38,949 nucleotides of DNA from a virus: positions 1-38,949 of the IMG/VR virus record IMGVR_UViG_3300032223_001169; one strand, 5' to 3'. The position numbers were made by a program, and so were the translations under genes. Within the stretch, counting starts at the first letter, position 1, and each line of letters starts with the position of its first letter. This document shows positions 10,713 to 33,406 of the stretch, one piece after another. Under the pieces are notes generated by a model. That model saw only the letters and a program-made list of their open reading frames with translations. It made no database searches and had not been told where the DNA came from.

Positions 10713-12122
10713 ATGGCAGATTTTTCCACGATCCTTCAGACGCCCGAGATCCGGGCGCTCGTGCAGGAAAACATCCTTGAGCGTGCGTTCCACGACGCGC
10801 TCTTCCCCCGGCTGCTGTTCCGTGGCGAGGCGACCCCCCAGGTGTGGCCTGCCAACATCGGTGACAGCATGGTCTTCACCGGAACGGGCCTTGTTCGCCC
10901 CAAGATGAAGCCCCTCCAGCCGGGATCTGATCCGGCTCCGTCGTCCTACCAGGCCGAGCAGTGGACCGCGACGCTTCAGCAGTACGCTGACAGCATCGAC
11001 ACCCACATGCCGACCAGCATCACGGCGATTGCTAACCTGTTCCTGCGTAACGCCCACCAGCTGGGTATGAGCGCCGGTCAGGCCATGAACCGGATCGTCC
11101 GTGACCGCATGTACAACGCGGCTGAGTCGGGCTGGACCGTTGCTGATGGCAACCAGGCTGCCGTGACCACGCTGCGCGTGAAGCGCCTCAACGGCTTCAC
11201 CCGCGCTCGTCGCCCCGACCTGCCGACCGGCAGCGCGGTGCGTTTCGACACCGTTTCGACCAACAACCCGCTGGTCGTGACCATCTTCGACAGCGGCCTC
11301 GCAGCCCCCGTCACCCGCGCTGTCATCGGCTTCTCGCCTGACGTTGCTGGCGACGAGGTTGGACCGGGCACCATCACCCTGTCGGGTGGCGCAGTGACCG
11401 TTCTGGACCGTGGCTATATCTACAGCGCAGACCGCTCCTACGTCGTGCGCGTCGGTGGCGGCAACAGCGTTGACGACATCGGCTCCAACGACATCCTGAA
11501 GCTGTCGGACATCCGCGCTGCGGTTGCTCGCTTCTGGCAGCAGAACGTGCCGGAGCACGCTGACGGTCGCTTCCACTGCCACCTCGACCCGACCTCGCAG
11601 GCTCAGGTGTTCGCGGATCAGGAATGGCGCCAGCTGCTCACCTCGCTGCCTGACTACTATATGTACCGTCAGTTTGCGCTGGGCGAGCTGCTCAACACCG
11701 TGTTCTTCCGTAACTCGGAGTGCCCGGTTCCCGAGACCGTCGAGGGCGGCGACACCGCCACCTTCACGCAGGACGATCCGTTCGCAGGCGAGCTCTACAA
11801 CGACGGCACCACTGCCGGCGTCAAGGTTCACCGCGCACTGTTCACGGGCCAGGGCGGTATCTACGAGTACCACCAGGACCTGTCGGGCCTGATGACCGAC
11901 GCTGGCATCACCGGCAAGGTTGGCGAGCCCCGCGTGACGAACAACAGCATTGAGGTCTTCACCGACCGCATCCAGCTGATCCTCCGTTCGCCGCTGAACC
12001 GCCTCCAGGATCTGGTTTCGACCAGCTGGAAGTTCATCGGTGACTGGCCGGTTCGCACCGACGCCACCACGGGTGACGCGGCGCGCTATAAGAGGTTCGT
12101 GGTTGTGATGGGCGGCGAATAG
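10713..12122 (+). CDS. Major capsid protein
   Basis: A 469-aa protein straight after the scaffold, preceded by GGAG. The N-terminal part (residues 10-125) has the layout of HK97-fold capsid proteins of the N4 gp56-like kind: ERAFHDALFPRLLF, a strand NIGDSMVFTGTG, and the LQPGSDP loop followed by ATLQQYADSIDTH. A beta-rich stretch (about 145-255) may be an inserted domain. The C-terminal region (RFHCHLDPTSQAQVFADQ, GELLNTVFFRNSEC) fits the P and A domains. Codons are strongly C-ending, as expected for a highly expressed gene. It is followed by a large structured RNA region. Confidence 0.9.
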   Translation: MADFSTILQTPEIRALVQENILERAFHDALFPRLLFRGEATPQVWPANIGDSMVFTGTGLVRPKMKPLQPGSDPAPSSYQAEQWTATLQQYADSIDTHMPTSITAIANLFLRNAHQLGMSAGQAMNRIVRDRMYNAAESGWTVADGNQAAVTTLRVKRLNGFTRARRPDLPTGSAVRFDTVSTNNPLVVTIFDSGLAAPVTRAVIGFSPDVAGDEVGPGTITLSGGAVTVLDRGYIYSADRSYVVRVGGGNSVDDIGSNDILKLSDIRAAVARFWQQNVPEHADGRFHCHLDPTSQAQVFADQEWRQLLTSLPDYYMYRQFALGELLNTVFFRNSECPVPETVEGGDTATFTQDDPFAGELYNDGTTAGVKVHRALFTGQGGIYEYHQDLSGLMTDAGITGKVGEPRVTNNSIEVFTDRIQLILRSPLNRLQDLVSTSWKFIGDWPVRTDATTGDAARYKRFVVVMGGE

Positions 12123-12139
12123 CCACTTGATCGGATAGA

Positions 12140-12181
12140 CTGAGAGGCGCCCTGCCTGAACTACAAGCGGGCGCCTCTCAG
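12140..12181 (+). terminator. 13-bp hairpin after capsid gene, no T-run
   Basis: CTGAGAGGCGCCC (12140-12152) pairs perfectly with GGGCGCCTCTCAG (12169-12181) around a 16-base loop. It starts 18 bases after the capsid stop. No T-tract follows (GTTCATAGG), so it is not a standard intrinsic terminator. It may protect the capsid mRNA 3' end or be the first helix of the structured RNA that follows. Confidence 0.55.
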
Positions 12182-12197
12182 GTTCATAGGAACACAG

Positions 12198-12538
12198 ATT
12201 CGGCCACCCACGATGTGGGTTTATGTGCGGCTCCTTCGGGAGCCACCTTGGCCGAATGCCGGCTTGCTGCTCACCTGTGGTGGGCCTTTGTATGCAGCCG
12301 GTTTGTGCCGGGCCTTTGTTGCCTGGCTTTCGGGGCAACTCCTGACGCTGTTGCGTCATGGATCGCCCCACCCTGCGGTGATAGGACTCGCTCGCCTTTA
12401 TGGCTCGTCGTCCGTCCTATCAGCTTTGTCTGCGGGGCTGGTCTGTTGGGTGCTCTACTACTGTCACGGGGTCAGCTACCCTGGTTAATTGAGCGCCCTT
12501 GTTTGACCAGCCCCGCGCCGCTTTTCCCCTGAGAGGGG
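12198..12538 (+). ncRNA. Candidate large structured RNA
   Basis: Almost the whole gap between capsid and next gene can pair. P1 12198-12206/12249-12257 (9 bp) closes a three-way junction holding P2 (CCCAC-GAT-GTGGG, 12207-12219) and P3 (GGCTCC-TTCG-GGAGCC, 12229-12244). Next come 12272-12275/12279-12282, 12318-12323/12334-12339, TGACGC-TGTT-GCGTCA (12343-12358), a 9-bp stem 12379-12387/12414-12422 and a perfect 12-bp stem 12432-12443/12505-12516. The last encloses an 8-bp stem 12448-12455/12491-12498. A CCCCT/AGGGG hairpin (12526-12538) precedes the next gene. GGGCCTTTGT occurs after two hairpins (12282, 12310) and GCTTTGT after a third (12423). No known RNA family is recognised. Confidence 0.7.
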
Positions 12539-12551
12539 CTAAGGATTCAGC

Positions 12552-12857
12552 ATGGCACGCAAGCGCAAAGAGGTTGAGCAGGAAGCAGCCGCAGCCGTTG
12601 AGGCTGTGGAAGAGCTGGCCGCTCCCGAAGAGGCGCAGCTGGTTGAGGCAGAAGTGCTTCCCGGCAGCGTGGAAGAGCAAGAAGGCGCCCCGGTGGCGCT
12701 CCCGGCCAAGTGGGTTGTGGTCGAGGACTGCCGCGTGAGCTTGTTTGGGCAGATCACCACCCTGCCGGCAGGAACCATCGTCTCCTTGGCCTCCTATGGC
12801 CATGAGGGCGTGCGTCGTATGCTGGAGCAGGGCGTGTTCTTGGAGCCCGCGATCTAA
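12552..12857 (+). CDS. Small protein with acidic N-terminus, head-neck region
   Basis: A 101-aa protein with AAGGA upstream. The first half is a KR start followed by Glu/Ala-rich, probably helical or disordered sequence. The second half (PAKWVVVEDCRVSLFGQI... and SLASYGHEGVRRMLEQGV) looks like a small folded domain, with VVVEDCRVSL and TTLPAGTIVSL as beta strands. Its place directly after the capsid gene suggests a head or neck accessory protein. Not assigned to a family. Confidence 0.55.
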   Translation: MARKRKEVEQEAAAAVEAVEELAAPEEAQLVEAEVLPGSVEEQEGAPVALPAKWVVVEDCRVSLFGQITTLPAGTIVSLASYGHEGVRRMLEQGVFLEPAI

Positions 12858-12874
12858 GCAGAGGTGTGCCGGCT

Positions 12875-13483
12875 ATGGAAGTCTTCTGCGACAACAGCGA
12901 GATCTTGACCAAGGCTTGTCGCAGTTGCGACGAAGTTAAGCCGTATAGTTTTTACCATCGGCATAAAGCAAACAAGACTGGGTACGATTCAATTTGTAAG
13001 GTATGCAGTAAAGCAAAAACCTATGAGTATCGGAAAAACAACCCAGACGTTCACCGTAGAATAGTGGCGGCATCGCGCGCCAGAAACCCAGAAGCGACAA
13101 AGGCGGCGCGTCAAAAATGGCATGACAAAAACCCAGAATACGAGCTAGCGCGCTATAAGCGCCGCAGACAAGATCTGGCGCAGGTGGAAAAAATGCGGGC
13201 CGCCAATCAGCGCCGAAAGGCTCGAAATCGGATCGCTACCCCGATTGAAGACACGCTCACTACAGCGCAGACTCTTTGGCTTAGAGCGCAATGCTGCGCC
13301 TACTGCATGGCGCCAAGCACCGAGTTAGATCACGTTGTGCCAATTTCAGGCGGCGGCGCAAACAGCATTGACAACATTGTGTCTGCGTGCCGTAGATGCA
13401 ATGCCCAAAAAGGTGCTAAATCGCTATTGCAGTTCTTGCTTGCACGCAAGCTGGCAAAGCAAGGGGGTGGCGTATGGCGCTAA
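12875..13483 (+). CDS. HNH endonuclease with N-terminal zinc finger, inserted
   Basis: A 202-aa protein from ATG 12875, with GAGG 10 bases upstream; GTG 12866 is possible but sits on the ribosome site. The N-terminus has a CRSC...CKVC zinc-finger-like pair (residues about 15-44), followed by a long basic helical region (45-125). The C-terminus has the HNH core: CAYC (141-144), ELDHVVPISGGG (H153), DNIVSACRRCNAQKG (N167, C172, C175, N176). Codons are AT-richer than its neighbours (AAA, GAA, TAT, CAA), a sign of separate origin. It overlaps the next gene by 10 bases, so insertion used the neighbour's start. Probably a free-standing homing endonuclease. Confidence 0.85.
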   Translation: MEVFCDNSEILTKACRSCDEVKPYSFYHRHKANKTGYDSICKVCSKAKTYEYRKNNPDVHRRIVAASRARNPEATKAARQKWHDKNPEYELARYKRRRQDLAQVEKMRAANQRRKARNRIATPIEDTLTTAQTLWLRAQCCAYCMAPSTELDHVVPISGGGANSIDNIVSACRRCNAQKGAKSLLQFLLARKLAKQGGGVWR

Positions 13484-31438: not shown

Positions 31439-31480
31439 TCCGCAAGCAGAAAAGACCGACTGGCATTGGGTCAGTCATCT

Positions 31481-31499
31481 GGGGTGCATGGGGCACCCC
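31481..31499 (+). promoter_or_regulatory. Hairpin before coiled-coil fibre gene
   Basis: GGGGTGC (31481-31487) pairs with GCACCCC (31493-31499) around ATGGG. It ends four bases before the AAGGAG that serves GTG 31514, so it could control ribosome access. No T-run, so not a typical terminator. Confidence 0.5.
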
Positions 31500-31513
31500 G
31501 CAAGGAGTGGCAA

Positions 31514-33406
31514 GTGGCAAATGCAAAGAAGTTCCTCTGGCTGGACGCTGATGGTCAGCTGCGCGAGCAGACGACCGCAGAGACCATCCAGGTGGCAGAC
31601 GGCGTGGCATCCGCCGACGCAGTCAACAAGGGGCAGCTGGACGGCGCTGTTGGCGGTCTGACCGACCTGATCAACGCTGAAGCAGCACGCGCAACGCAGG
31701 CCGAGGCGGCTCTGGGCGACAGCCTGACCGCTGAGACTGCGGCTCGCGTTGCGGCTGATGCAGCGATCAGCGCATCGCTGACGGCAGAGACCAACGCACG
31801 CACCGCAGCTGACACGGCTCTCGGTGGGCGTATCGACACCGAGATCAGCGAGCGCCAGGCCGCGATCTCGACCGAGCAGGCTGCTCGTATCGCAGGTGAT
31901 GCGGCTCTCCGCAGCGACCTCGATGCAGAGATCGCCCGCGCAATCGCAGCAGAAGGCTCTGAGGCCACTGCTCGGCAGAACGCCGATGCAGCCCTCCAGG
32001 CGTCGATTGATGCACTCCAGAACGCCAGCAACGCGGCGCTCCAGAGCGCAATCAACAGCCTGACGGCGGGCCTGTCCGCTGAAGAGGCCGCACGCATCGC
32101 TGCTGACGACGCCCTGACGGCATCGCTCAACGCAGAGATCGCACGCGCCACGGCAGCAGAAGGTGCCGAGCAGGCTGCACGCATCGCCGCGATCAACGCA
32201 GCGAACGCAGCCATCAGCGCAGAGCAGGCACGGGCAGAGGCGGCAGAGGCCAAGCTGACCAGCGATCTGGCAGCAGAGGCAGCAACCGCACGCGCTGCTG
32301 AGTCGGCAAACGCCGCTGCAATCGCAGCCGAGCAGAGCCGCGCACAGTCCGCAGAGTCGCAGCTCACCAGCGACCTGACGGCAGAGATCACCCGCGCAGA
32401 GGCAGCAGAGGCTGCAATCGCGGCTGACCTCGCCAGCGAGATCGCACGCGCAACGGCATCCGAGGCCGCCAAGCTCCAGGAGGCCAAGGACTACGCTGAC
32501 GCTCGCGTTCAGGGCCTGTCCTTCAAGACCTCGGTTGACTACGCCTTCAACCGCGTCCAGGGCGCACAGACCCTGCCGGCTGATGCAGTTGCATTCTCGG
32601 CAGCTCAGGGTCTGAGCGCAGGCGACCGCGTCCTGGTCTACGGCGCGGCTCACGTTGACTGCGGCATCTACGTTGTTCAGGCTGGTGGCGCGTTTGCTCG
32701 CGCTGCTGACATGGCAGCGGCGGCTGACGCGGCTGGCGCTTACGTCTACGTCGAGAGCGCCTCGGCTGCTGGCGCAGCCCCCGGCACCTCGTTCGTTTGC
32801 GCGAACGCAGGCACCGCAGCGGTTGGCTCGGCAGCTCTGGAGTTCGTGATCTTCAGCCGCGCCGAGAACCTCTCGTTCGGCGCAGGCGTGCAGAAGGTCG
32901 GCACCGCTGTCTCCGCGAAGGTTGTGGCTTCCAAGCCCGTCTTCGTTGATGGCGACTCGATCAGCTTCCGCATCGACTCCACCGACCTGTCCATCGCGGC
33001 AGGCGGCGAGCTGAAGGTTGACGGCGCCCTCGTTGGTGGCCAGTTCGTGGACGCGGGCGACAAGCACGCGCACTCCTCGCTGGCAGAGACCATGGCATCG
33101 GCAGCAACCGTCGGCGTGTTCGTTGACTCCGCTGGCGCAGCCGCAACCTGGGACGCCGCTGGCGCCTTCGGCTGCGTTGATGCCAAGAACGGTGGCGATG
33201 CTCGCGTTGTGATGGCCGGCCTGTCGAACGTGGCCTCGGGCGCGCTGAACGCCTTCGCTGATGACGAGCGCGTGTACCTCGGCAGCGCCGCTGGCGTGTT
33301 TGCCAAGTACGCAGACGTCCCGAGCGGCAAGTGGGCCGTTCCGGTCGGCTTCAAGCACGGCAGCAAGCTCAAGGTCCACATGCTGCCTGCCGCAATGAAG
33401 GCGTAA
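31514..33406 (+). CDS. Coiled-coil tail fibre
   Basis: A 630-aa protein from GTG 31514, with AAGGAG 7 bases upstream; the frame is open to 31466, but that part covers a hairpin. Residues 1-50 form a small N-terminal part (KKFLWLDADGQLREQTTAET, a fibre-type opening). About residues 50-330 are an exceptionally long Ala/Glu/Arg coiled coil with repeated EIARATAAEGAE and ARIAADDAL units. A globular beta-rich C-terminal part follows (QGLSFKTSVDYAFN, then HAHSSLAETMASAATVGVF), probably the receptor-binding end. The layout is that of a trimeric rod-like tail fibre. A strong terminator follows. Confidence 0.8.
   Translation: MANAKKFLWLDADGQLREQTTAETIQVADGVASADAVNKGQLDGAVGGLTDLINAEAARATQAEAALGDSLTAETAARVAADAAISASLTAETNARTAADTALGGRIDTEISERQAAISTEQAARIAGDAALRSDLDAEIARAIAAEGSEATARQNADAALQASIDALQNASNAALQSAINSLTAGLSAEEAARIAADDALTASLNAEIARATAAEGAEQAARIAAINAANAAISAEQARAEAAEAKLTSDLAAEAATARAAESANAAAIAAEQSRAQSAESQLTSDLTAEITRAEAAEAAIAADLASEIARATASEAAKLQEAKDYADARVQGLSFKTSVDYAFNRVQGAQTLPADAVAFSAAQGLSAGDRVLVYGAAHVDCGIYVVQAGGAFARAADMAAAADAAGAYVYVESASAAGAAPGTSFVCANAGTAAVGSAALEFVIFSRAENLSFGAGVQKVGTAVSAKVVASKPVFVDGDSISFRIDSTDLSIAAGGELKVDGALVGGQFVDAGDKHAHSSLAETMASAATVGVFVDSAGAAATWDAAGAFGCVDAKNGGDARVVMAGLSNVASGALNAFADDERVYLGSAAGVFAKYADVPSGKWAVPVGFKHGSKLKVHMLPAAMKA

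Follow-up and report, generated by a model that had tools for sequence, protein, structure and literature searches.

The stretch of phage DNA analyzed here, called the window throughout, is 38,949 nucleotides long and carries a 429-nt gap (12123-12551) between the stop codon of a major capsid gene (12120-12122) and the ATG of the next gene at 12552. This downstream neighbour has homologues in many relatives by tblastn and gave zero matches when PHROG and Pfam were searched. The features of the locus, all on the plus strand, are as follows.

10713-12122, plus strand: major capsid gene bordering the gap on its upstream side, matching PHROG 1357 (major head protein) at E = 2.4e-13
12123-12525, plus strand: putative structured RNA element as a whole, with presumed ends running from the capsid stop to the U-run
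12140-12181, plus strand: 5' hairpin of 13 bp (12140-12152/12169-12181), with homologous folds and, in its basal part, both-sided changes in 6 of 9 pairs
12198-12257, plus strand: three-way junction with closing stem 12198-12205/12250-12257 and arms 12206-12220 and 12229-12244 (cUUCGg loop)
12258-12302, plus strand: hairpin with inner stem 12269-12275/12279-12285 (helices 7 and 8 of the close-relative test)
12332-12369, plus strand: core hairpin P, GCAACUCC...UGGAUCGC, supported by covariation in 36 sequences and a match to covariance model R1
12375-12521, plus strand: 3' three-way junction with closing stem GCGG (12375-12378)/CCGC (12518-12521), deduced from homologues
12379-12422, plus strand: medium arm of the 3' junction, with a perfect 9-bp stem (12379-12387/12414-12422)
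12432-12516, plus strand: long GC-rich arm, with a perfect 12-bp basal stem (12432-12443/12505-12516) and an inner stem (12448-12455/12491-12498)
12461-12483, plus strand: apical pseudoknot, in which CUG (12461-12463) pairs with CAG (12473-12475) around stem 12467-12472/12478-12483
12522-12525, plus strand: UUUU right after the closing stem, a terminator-like 3' end
12552-12857, plus strand: downstream neighbour, a 101-amino acid ORF of no assigned family

Just past the downstream neighbour lies an HNH endonuclease ORF (12866-13483; Pfam HNH, E = 9.8e-12). HNH genes of relatives occupy other spots in the same interval, including right after the capsid gene in L067, L068 and L075, a variable placement expected of free-standing homing endonucleases. 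Elsewhere in the window, 31466-33406 encodes an Ala/Glu-rich, repetitive, coiled-coil-like protein, and the 653-codon antisense frame open across it is probably a by-product of codon bias. A search of all 38.9 kb for tRNA and tmRNA genes found zero.

Folding and covariation of the element

The original prediction that the gap folds nearly end to end was borne out, with a minimum free energy of -218.8 kcal/mol compared to -168.7 +/- 5.9 for dinucleotide shuffles (z = -8.5). Each helix it had named is present, namely the 13-bp hairpin, the three-way junction with a UUCG-capped arm, the 9-bp and 12-bp stems, and a final hairpin. Two details hold only locally: linker GGGCCTTTGT does occur twice in the window, and GCTTTGT once, but the GGGCCTTTGT linkers are not conserved family-wide, and neither is the final CCCC/GGGG hairpin (12526-12538) that precedes the ribosome site here. 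That prediction did not include the two parts that are conserved best, namely the apical pseudoknot on the long 3' arm and, in the 12332-12369 hairpin, the internal loop. Across eight homologous loci the gap gave z scores of -2.9 to -8.3, compared to mostly -2.8 to +1.1 for flanking coding windows at the same loci, the exception being L031, where the capsid window (z = -4.0) went beyond its own gap (z = -2.9).

Five close relatives align across the element. When 119 pairs taken from the window fold and the pseudoknot were scored in six close relatives, 89% of pair cells were paired, so that homologues keeping the gap without the pairing, the outcome that would have counted against a structured RNA, were not what we found. 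Both-sided compensatory changes occurred in 41 of the 119 pairs, compared to 20 expected from shuffles, and the covariation score was 0.332 against 0.155 for shuffled alignments. Sliding the partners by 1-3 columns lowered pairing to 36-44%, a comparison in which the true register has an advantage because the fold was derived from one of the aligned sequences. In the close-relative alignment, 5 of the 8 closing pairs of the three-way junction had changed on both sides, as had 2 of 6 and 5 of 6 pairs in its arms. Among the six relatives, the medium arm was 100% paired with little variation, and the basal and inner stems of the long arm were 100% and 94% paired, with both-sided changes in 1 and 4 pairs, respectively. 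Most homologues carry a strong hairpin after the capsid gene, usually lacking a U-run; the 5' hairpin is a possible 5' boundary or processing site.

Distant relatives share the core hairpin, which has the form GC-AAACCC-[hairpin of 3-7 bp]-UGGAACC-GC. Its stems covary across 36 sequences, with a score of 0.560 compared to 0.130 when shuffled and 97 both-sided cells compared to 30. Shortly upstream of the core hairpin, L014, L034, L053, L064, L100, L129 and others carry another recurring hairpin, whose loop is (U)CGGUC; it is missing from the clade of the window.

The 3' junction follows the core hairpin and consists of one or two medium arms plus one long GC-rich arm. Its closing stem is GCGG/CCGC here and GGCAG/CUGCC, GUGGC/GCCAC or others elsewhere, so the topology is kept in homologues with different base pairs; the minimum free energy fold of the window gives 12375-12378 and 12518-12521 other partners. 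The apex of the long arm has the consensus 5'-CCC(U)UA-stem-GGG(G)UUA-stem-GGUUA, forming a pseudoknot whose pairing changes across homologues from CUG/CAG to CCG/CGG, CCC/GGG and CGC/GCG, with both-sided changes in 3 of 3 pairs over 34 sequences. Permuting the loops among sequences reached the observed complementarity in 0 of 5000 trials, a count tempered by the shared descent of the sequences and by the manual choice of apex boundaries. With stem ends chosen by eye, 16 of 33 homologues, the window among them, have TTTT at most 12 nt from the closing stem, compared to a background of 1.1%. The combination of a GC-rich stem and a U-run in these 16, as in an intrinsic terminator, explains no more than the 3' end.

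Folding energy did not reveal the strand, since the reverse complement of the gap folds as strongly (z = -10.7). The plus strand folded lower in 14 of 32 family members, making the two strands about equal, whereas the sense strand folded better in 15 of 16 RNase P controls. Loops were more telling: perfect-stem hairpins carried TTCG 26 times and its reverse complement CGAA 0 times, and the cUUCGg loop is a hallmark of RNA. Within the close group, the 3' domain contained 13 G.U and 0 A.C pairs, a count possibly biased because the fold was derived from the plus strand. Of 455 cells in the core hairpin just 8 were G.U, and comparing G.U with A.C mismatches is uninformative as a strand test because RNase P fails it too. 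On balance, the cUUCGg loops and G.U pairs favour a plus-strand RNA despite the equal folding of both strands.

Protein coding was considered and rejected, as open frames differ in frame among homologues, stop codons interrupt every sense frame in most copies, and a consistently open frame sought in 36 copies was not found. Within the clade of the window, the element bears no sign of coding. In L299-L319, which form a distant clade, an open frame of about 130-175 codons spans the RNA region, and a homologous open frame was observed in the first ~540 nt past the capsid stop of L299, L301, L307, L312, L313 and L315. Differences in this frame spread evenly over codon positions, for example 36/29/36, compared to 57/35/174 for the capsid gene of the same pair; the open frame may reflect either a dual-function RNA or chance.

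Distribution and loss among uncultivated phages

IMG/VR yielded 80 loci with related capsids, most of which keep a long gap. Covariance model R1 recognized 33 loci in this capsid set (29 bits or higher), 19 further loci among those picked out when 2.9 million viral contigs were scanned for the pattern, and 5 more adjoining distant capsids that were searched singly. The core hairpin is thereby present at about 57 viral loci, a total in which some contigs are nearly identical and in which the sequences that R1 was built from match by construction; the window (34.4 bits) is one of these. Capsid identity spans about 40-97%, and the element measures 400-550 nt across the family and ~400 nt in the window. 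The carriers are a group of uncultivated tailed phages in which the fold has been kept through deep evolutionary change.

Genomic position was constant. Among the 19 pattern-scan loci, 18 had a recognisable capsid gene upstream (L125 is cut off) and all but L154, cut off downstream, had an orf135 homologue downstream, and every confident copy with readable neighbours sits between these two genes. Other genes intervene between the capsid gene and the RNA in L067, L075, L089 and L091, indicating that the RNA is not simply a capsid 3'UTR. Outside this setting, the pattern scan of bacterial and archaeal genomes gave at least 120 matches, and among the 120 listed the inner stem occurred in 8, about the chance rate. 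GenBank phages had zero DNA matches to 11900-12800, and cultured phages there yielded only three distant capsids, about 27-31% identical; the Kromp and phiKX1 records have the next gene within about 60 nt of the capsid gene.

A capsid tree built with FastTree placed the RNA in the deepest sampled branches and showed it missing from several separate clades, in which the next gene follows the capsid gene within about 50-150 nt. Three of the RNA-less loci (L013, L041, L057) have a plain hairpin and T-run after the capsid gene. We read these absences as losses. The number of losses is inexact, since presence labels came partly from gap length, five loci were left unsure, and L026 and L054 were labelled absent although reading them found a version of the element. 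The L054 copy has lost the core hairpin, which its near relative L060 keeps, and may be decaying.

Searches against known families point to a new one. At the gathering threshold of Rfam 15, no family was found in the window or 20 homologous loci, the covariance models of the GOLLD, ROOL and phi29 pRNA families were likewise unmatched by these sequences, and permissive scans of three copies returned only chance matches. A literature search, mostly outside subscription journals, turned up no paper describing the RNA. The family therefore looks new, while GOLLD and ROOL already exemplify its kind, large structured ncRNAs that phages carry and whose function is unknown. The searches and covariation analysis called for by the original prediction thus returned syntenic homologues, no Rfam family, and compensatory changes in all parts tested; together with the sense-strand UUCG loops and the lack of a coding signal, they uphold its central claim of a large structured RNA outside known families.

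Proposed nature of the RNA and its relation to known systems

The comparisons show conserved secondary structure, an apical pseudoknot and a fixed genomic position, while transcription of the RNA, its processing at the 5' hairpin, a mode of action in trans and a partner are matters of inference. The reading we prefer, to which we give about an even chance, is a stand-alone large structured phage ncRNA that would be co-transcribed with the capsid gene and end at its own terminator. The RNA would most likely be made from the same strand as the capsid gene, as the tail of an abundant late capsid transcript, and terminate at the three-way junction and U-run; its position and U-run fit such an origin. 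Once folded, it may act by itself or together with a protein of the phage or its host; sites for binding or tertiary contacts could be provided by the core's invariant internal loop and by the apical pseudoknot. Counting against this reading are the equal folding of both strands, the plain terminator that occupies its operon place in RNA-less relatives, and the open frame in the distant clade. A more ambitious version, which we hold tentatively and as somewhat less than an even bet, is an undescribed family of large trans-acting RNAs, ancestral in this tailed-phage lineage, co-expressed with the capsid, and using the internal loop as a receptor along with the pseudoknot for a novel function such as assembly, takeover of host ribosomes or RNA, or RNA-only assembly.

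The original prediction had offered three roles, a packaging RNA, a regulatory RNA or a stand-alone ncRNA, and these did not fare equally. A regulatory role is possible, at perhaps one chance in three in our estimation: the element could act in cis as a 3'UTR or attenuator between a highly expressed capsid gene and less expressed neck genes, ending or stabilizing capsid mRNA and setting polymerase read-through, perhaps via a bound factor. Its confinement to the capsid-orf135 interval, the U-run immediately upstream of the next ribosome site, and the plain hairpin and T-run found at the same operon place in L013, L041 and L057 all suit this role. However, the capsid gene can be separated from the element by other genes, as in the four loci above, and the directly downstream gene differs among relatives. 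In size, in its invariant loop and pseudoknot, and in tolerating inserted genes, the element exceeds what a terminator needs, and we prefer a stand-alone ncRNA to a cis operon element.

It is improbable that the element is a packaging or assembly RNA that, like phi29 pRNA, works within the prohead or its motor. The element is embedded in the head gene cluster and would probably be made together with capsid protein, but it is missing in several clades that keep the capsid and next genes. An essential motor part should not be lost, making an obligatory packaging RNA less likely, and no Rfam family matched. An even smaller chance goes to a DNA-level element, in which the palindromes would form an origin, packaging site or recombination site. 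Equal folding of both strands and the few G.U pairs in the core hairpin fit palindromic DNA, but the one-sided cUUCGg loops, the excess of G.U over A.C in the 3' domain and a terminal U-run on one strand argue for RNA.

Hardly credible is tRNA sensing. In most members, core strand UGGAACCGC agrees over nine letters with the T-box bulge UGGNACC (role described in PMC7583486) and the first bases of its helix, and it could pair with tRNA NCCA ends. CCA ends are invariant, but UGG becomes UAGAACC in L010 and UAGUACC in L058, and it faces a complementary CC. In L010 the opposite strand changes along with UAG, indicating that these bases pair internally. The shared 9-mer thus looks coincidental, and T-box membership was rejected, as a Stem I with specifier loop and a match to the T-box model were also sought in Rfam scans and not found.

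Because the RNA is compact, diverse, constant in location and backed by covariation, its structure lends itself to modelling, and a cultured host-phage pair would allow its function to be tested by deletion. Sister lineages that carry a plain terminator instead of the RNA are natural knock-outs.

Set beside known systems, the RNA resembles a T-box antiterminator in the UGGAACCGC identity and in having a 7-nt strand between two helices, and differs from it in the opposite order of strands, an additional invariant AAACCC with no T-box counterpart, a variable UGG, and the lack of a match for other T-box parts. Like phi29 pRNA it is a phage RNA that would be produced during head assembly, but it is larger, unmatched in Rfam and lost in several lineages. 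With a plain intrinsic terminator after a capsid gene, the sole feature in several RNA-less relatives, it shares its position and a terminal GC stem with a U-run, to which it adds about 400 nt of conserved structure, a pseudoknot and an invariant loop. Its resemblance to GOLLD and ROOL, ncRNAs of unknown function found in phages and prophages (PMC12286853), lies in being large, elaborately folded and pseudoknotted. Those two RNAs, which form homo-oligomeric cages, measure about 660-800 nt or more compared to about 430 nt here and lie at tRNA islands, whereas the present RNA adjoins the capsid gene and is always in the head gene cluster. Large structured bacterial and phage RNAs without relatives are rare finds, and GOLLD, ROOL and OLE each raised new questions.
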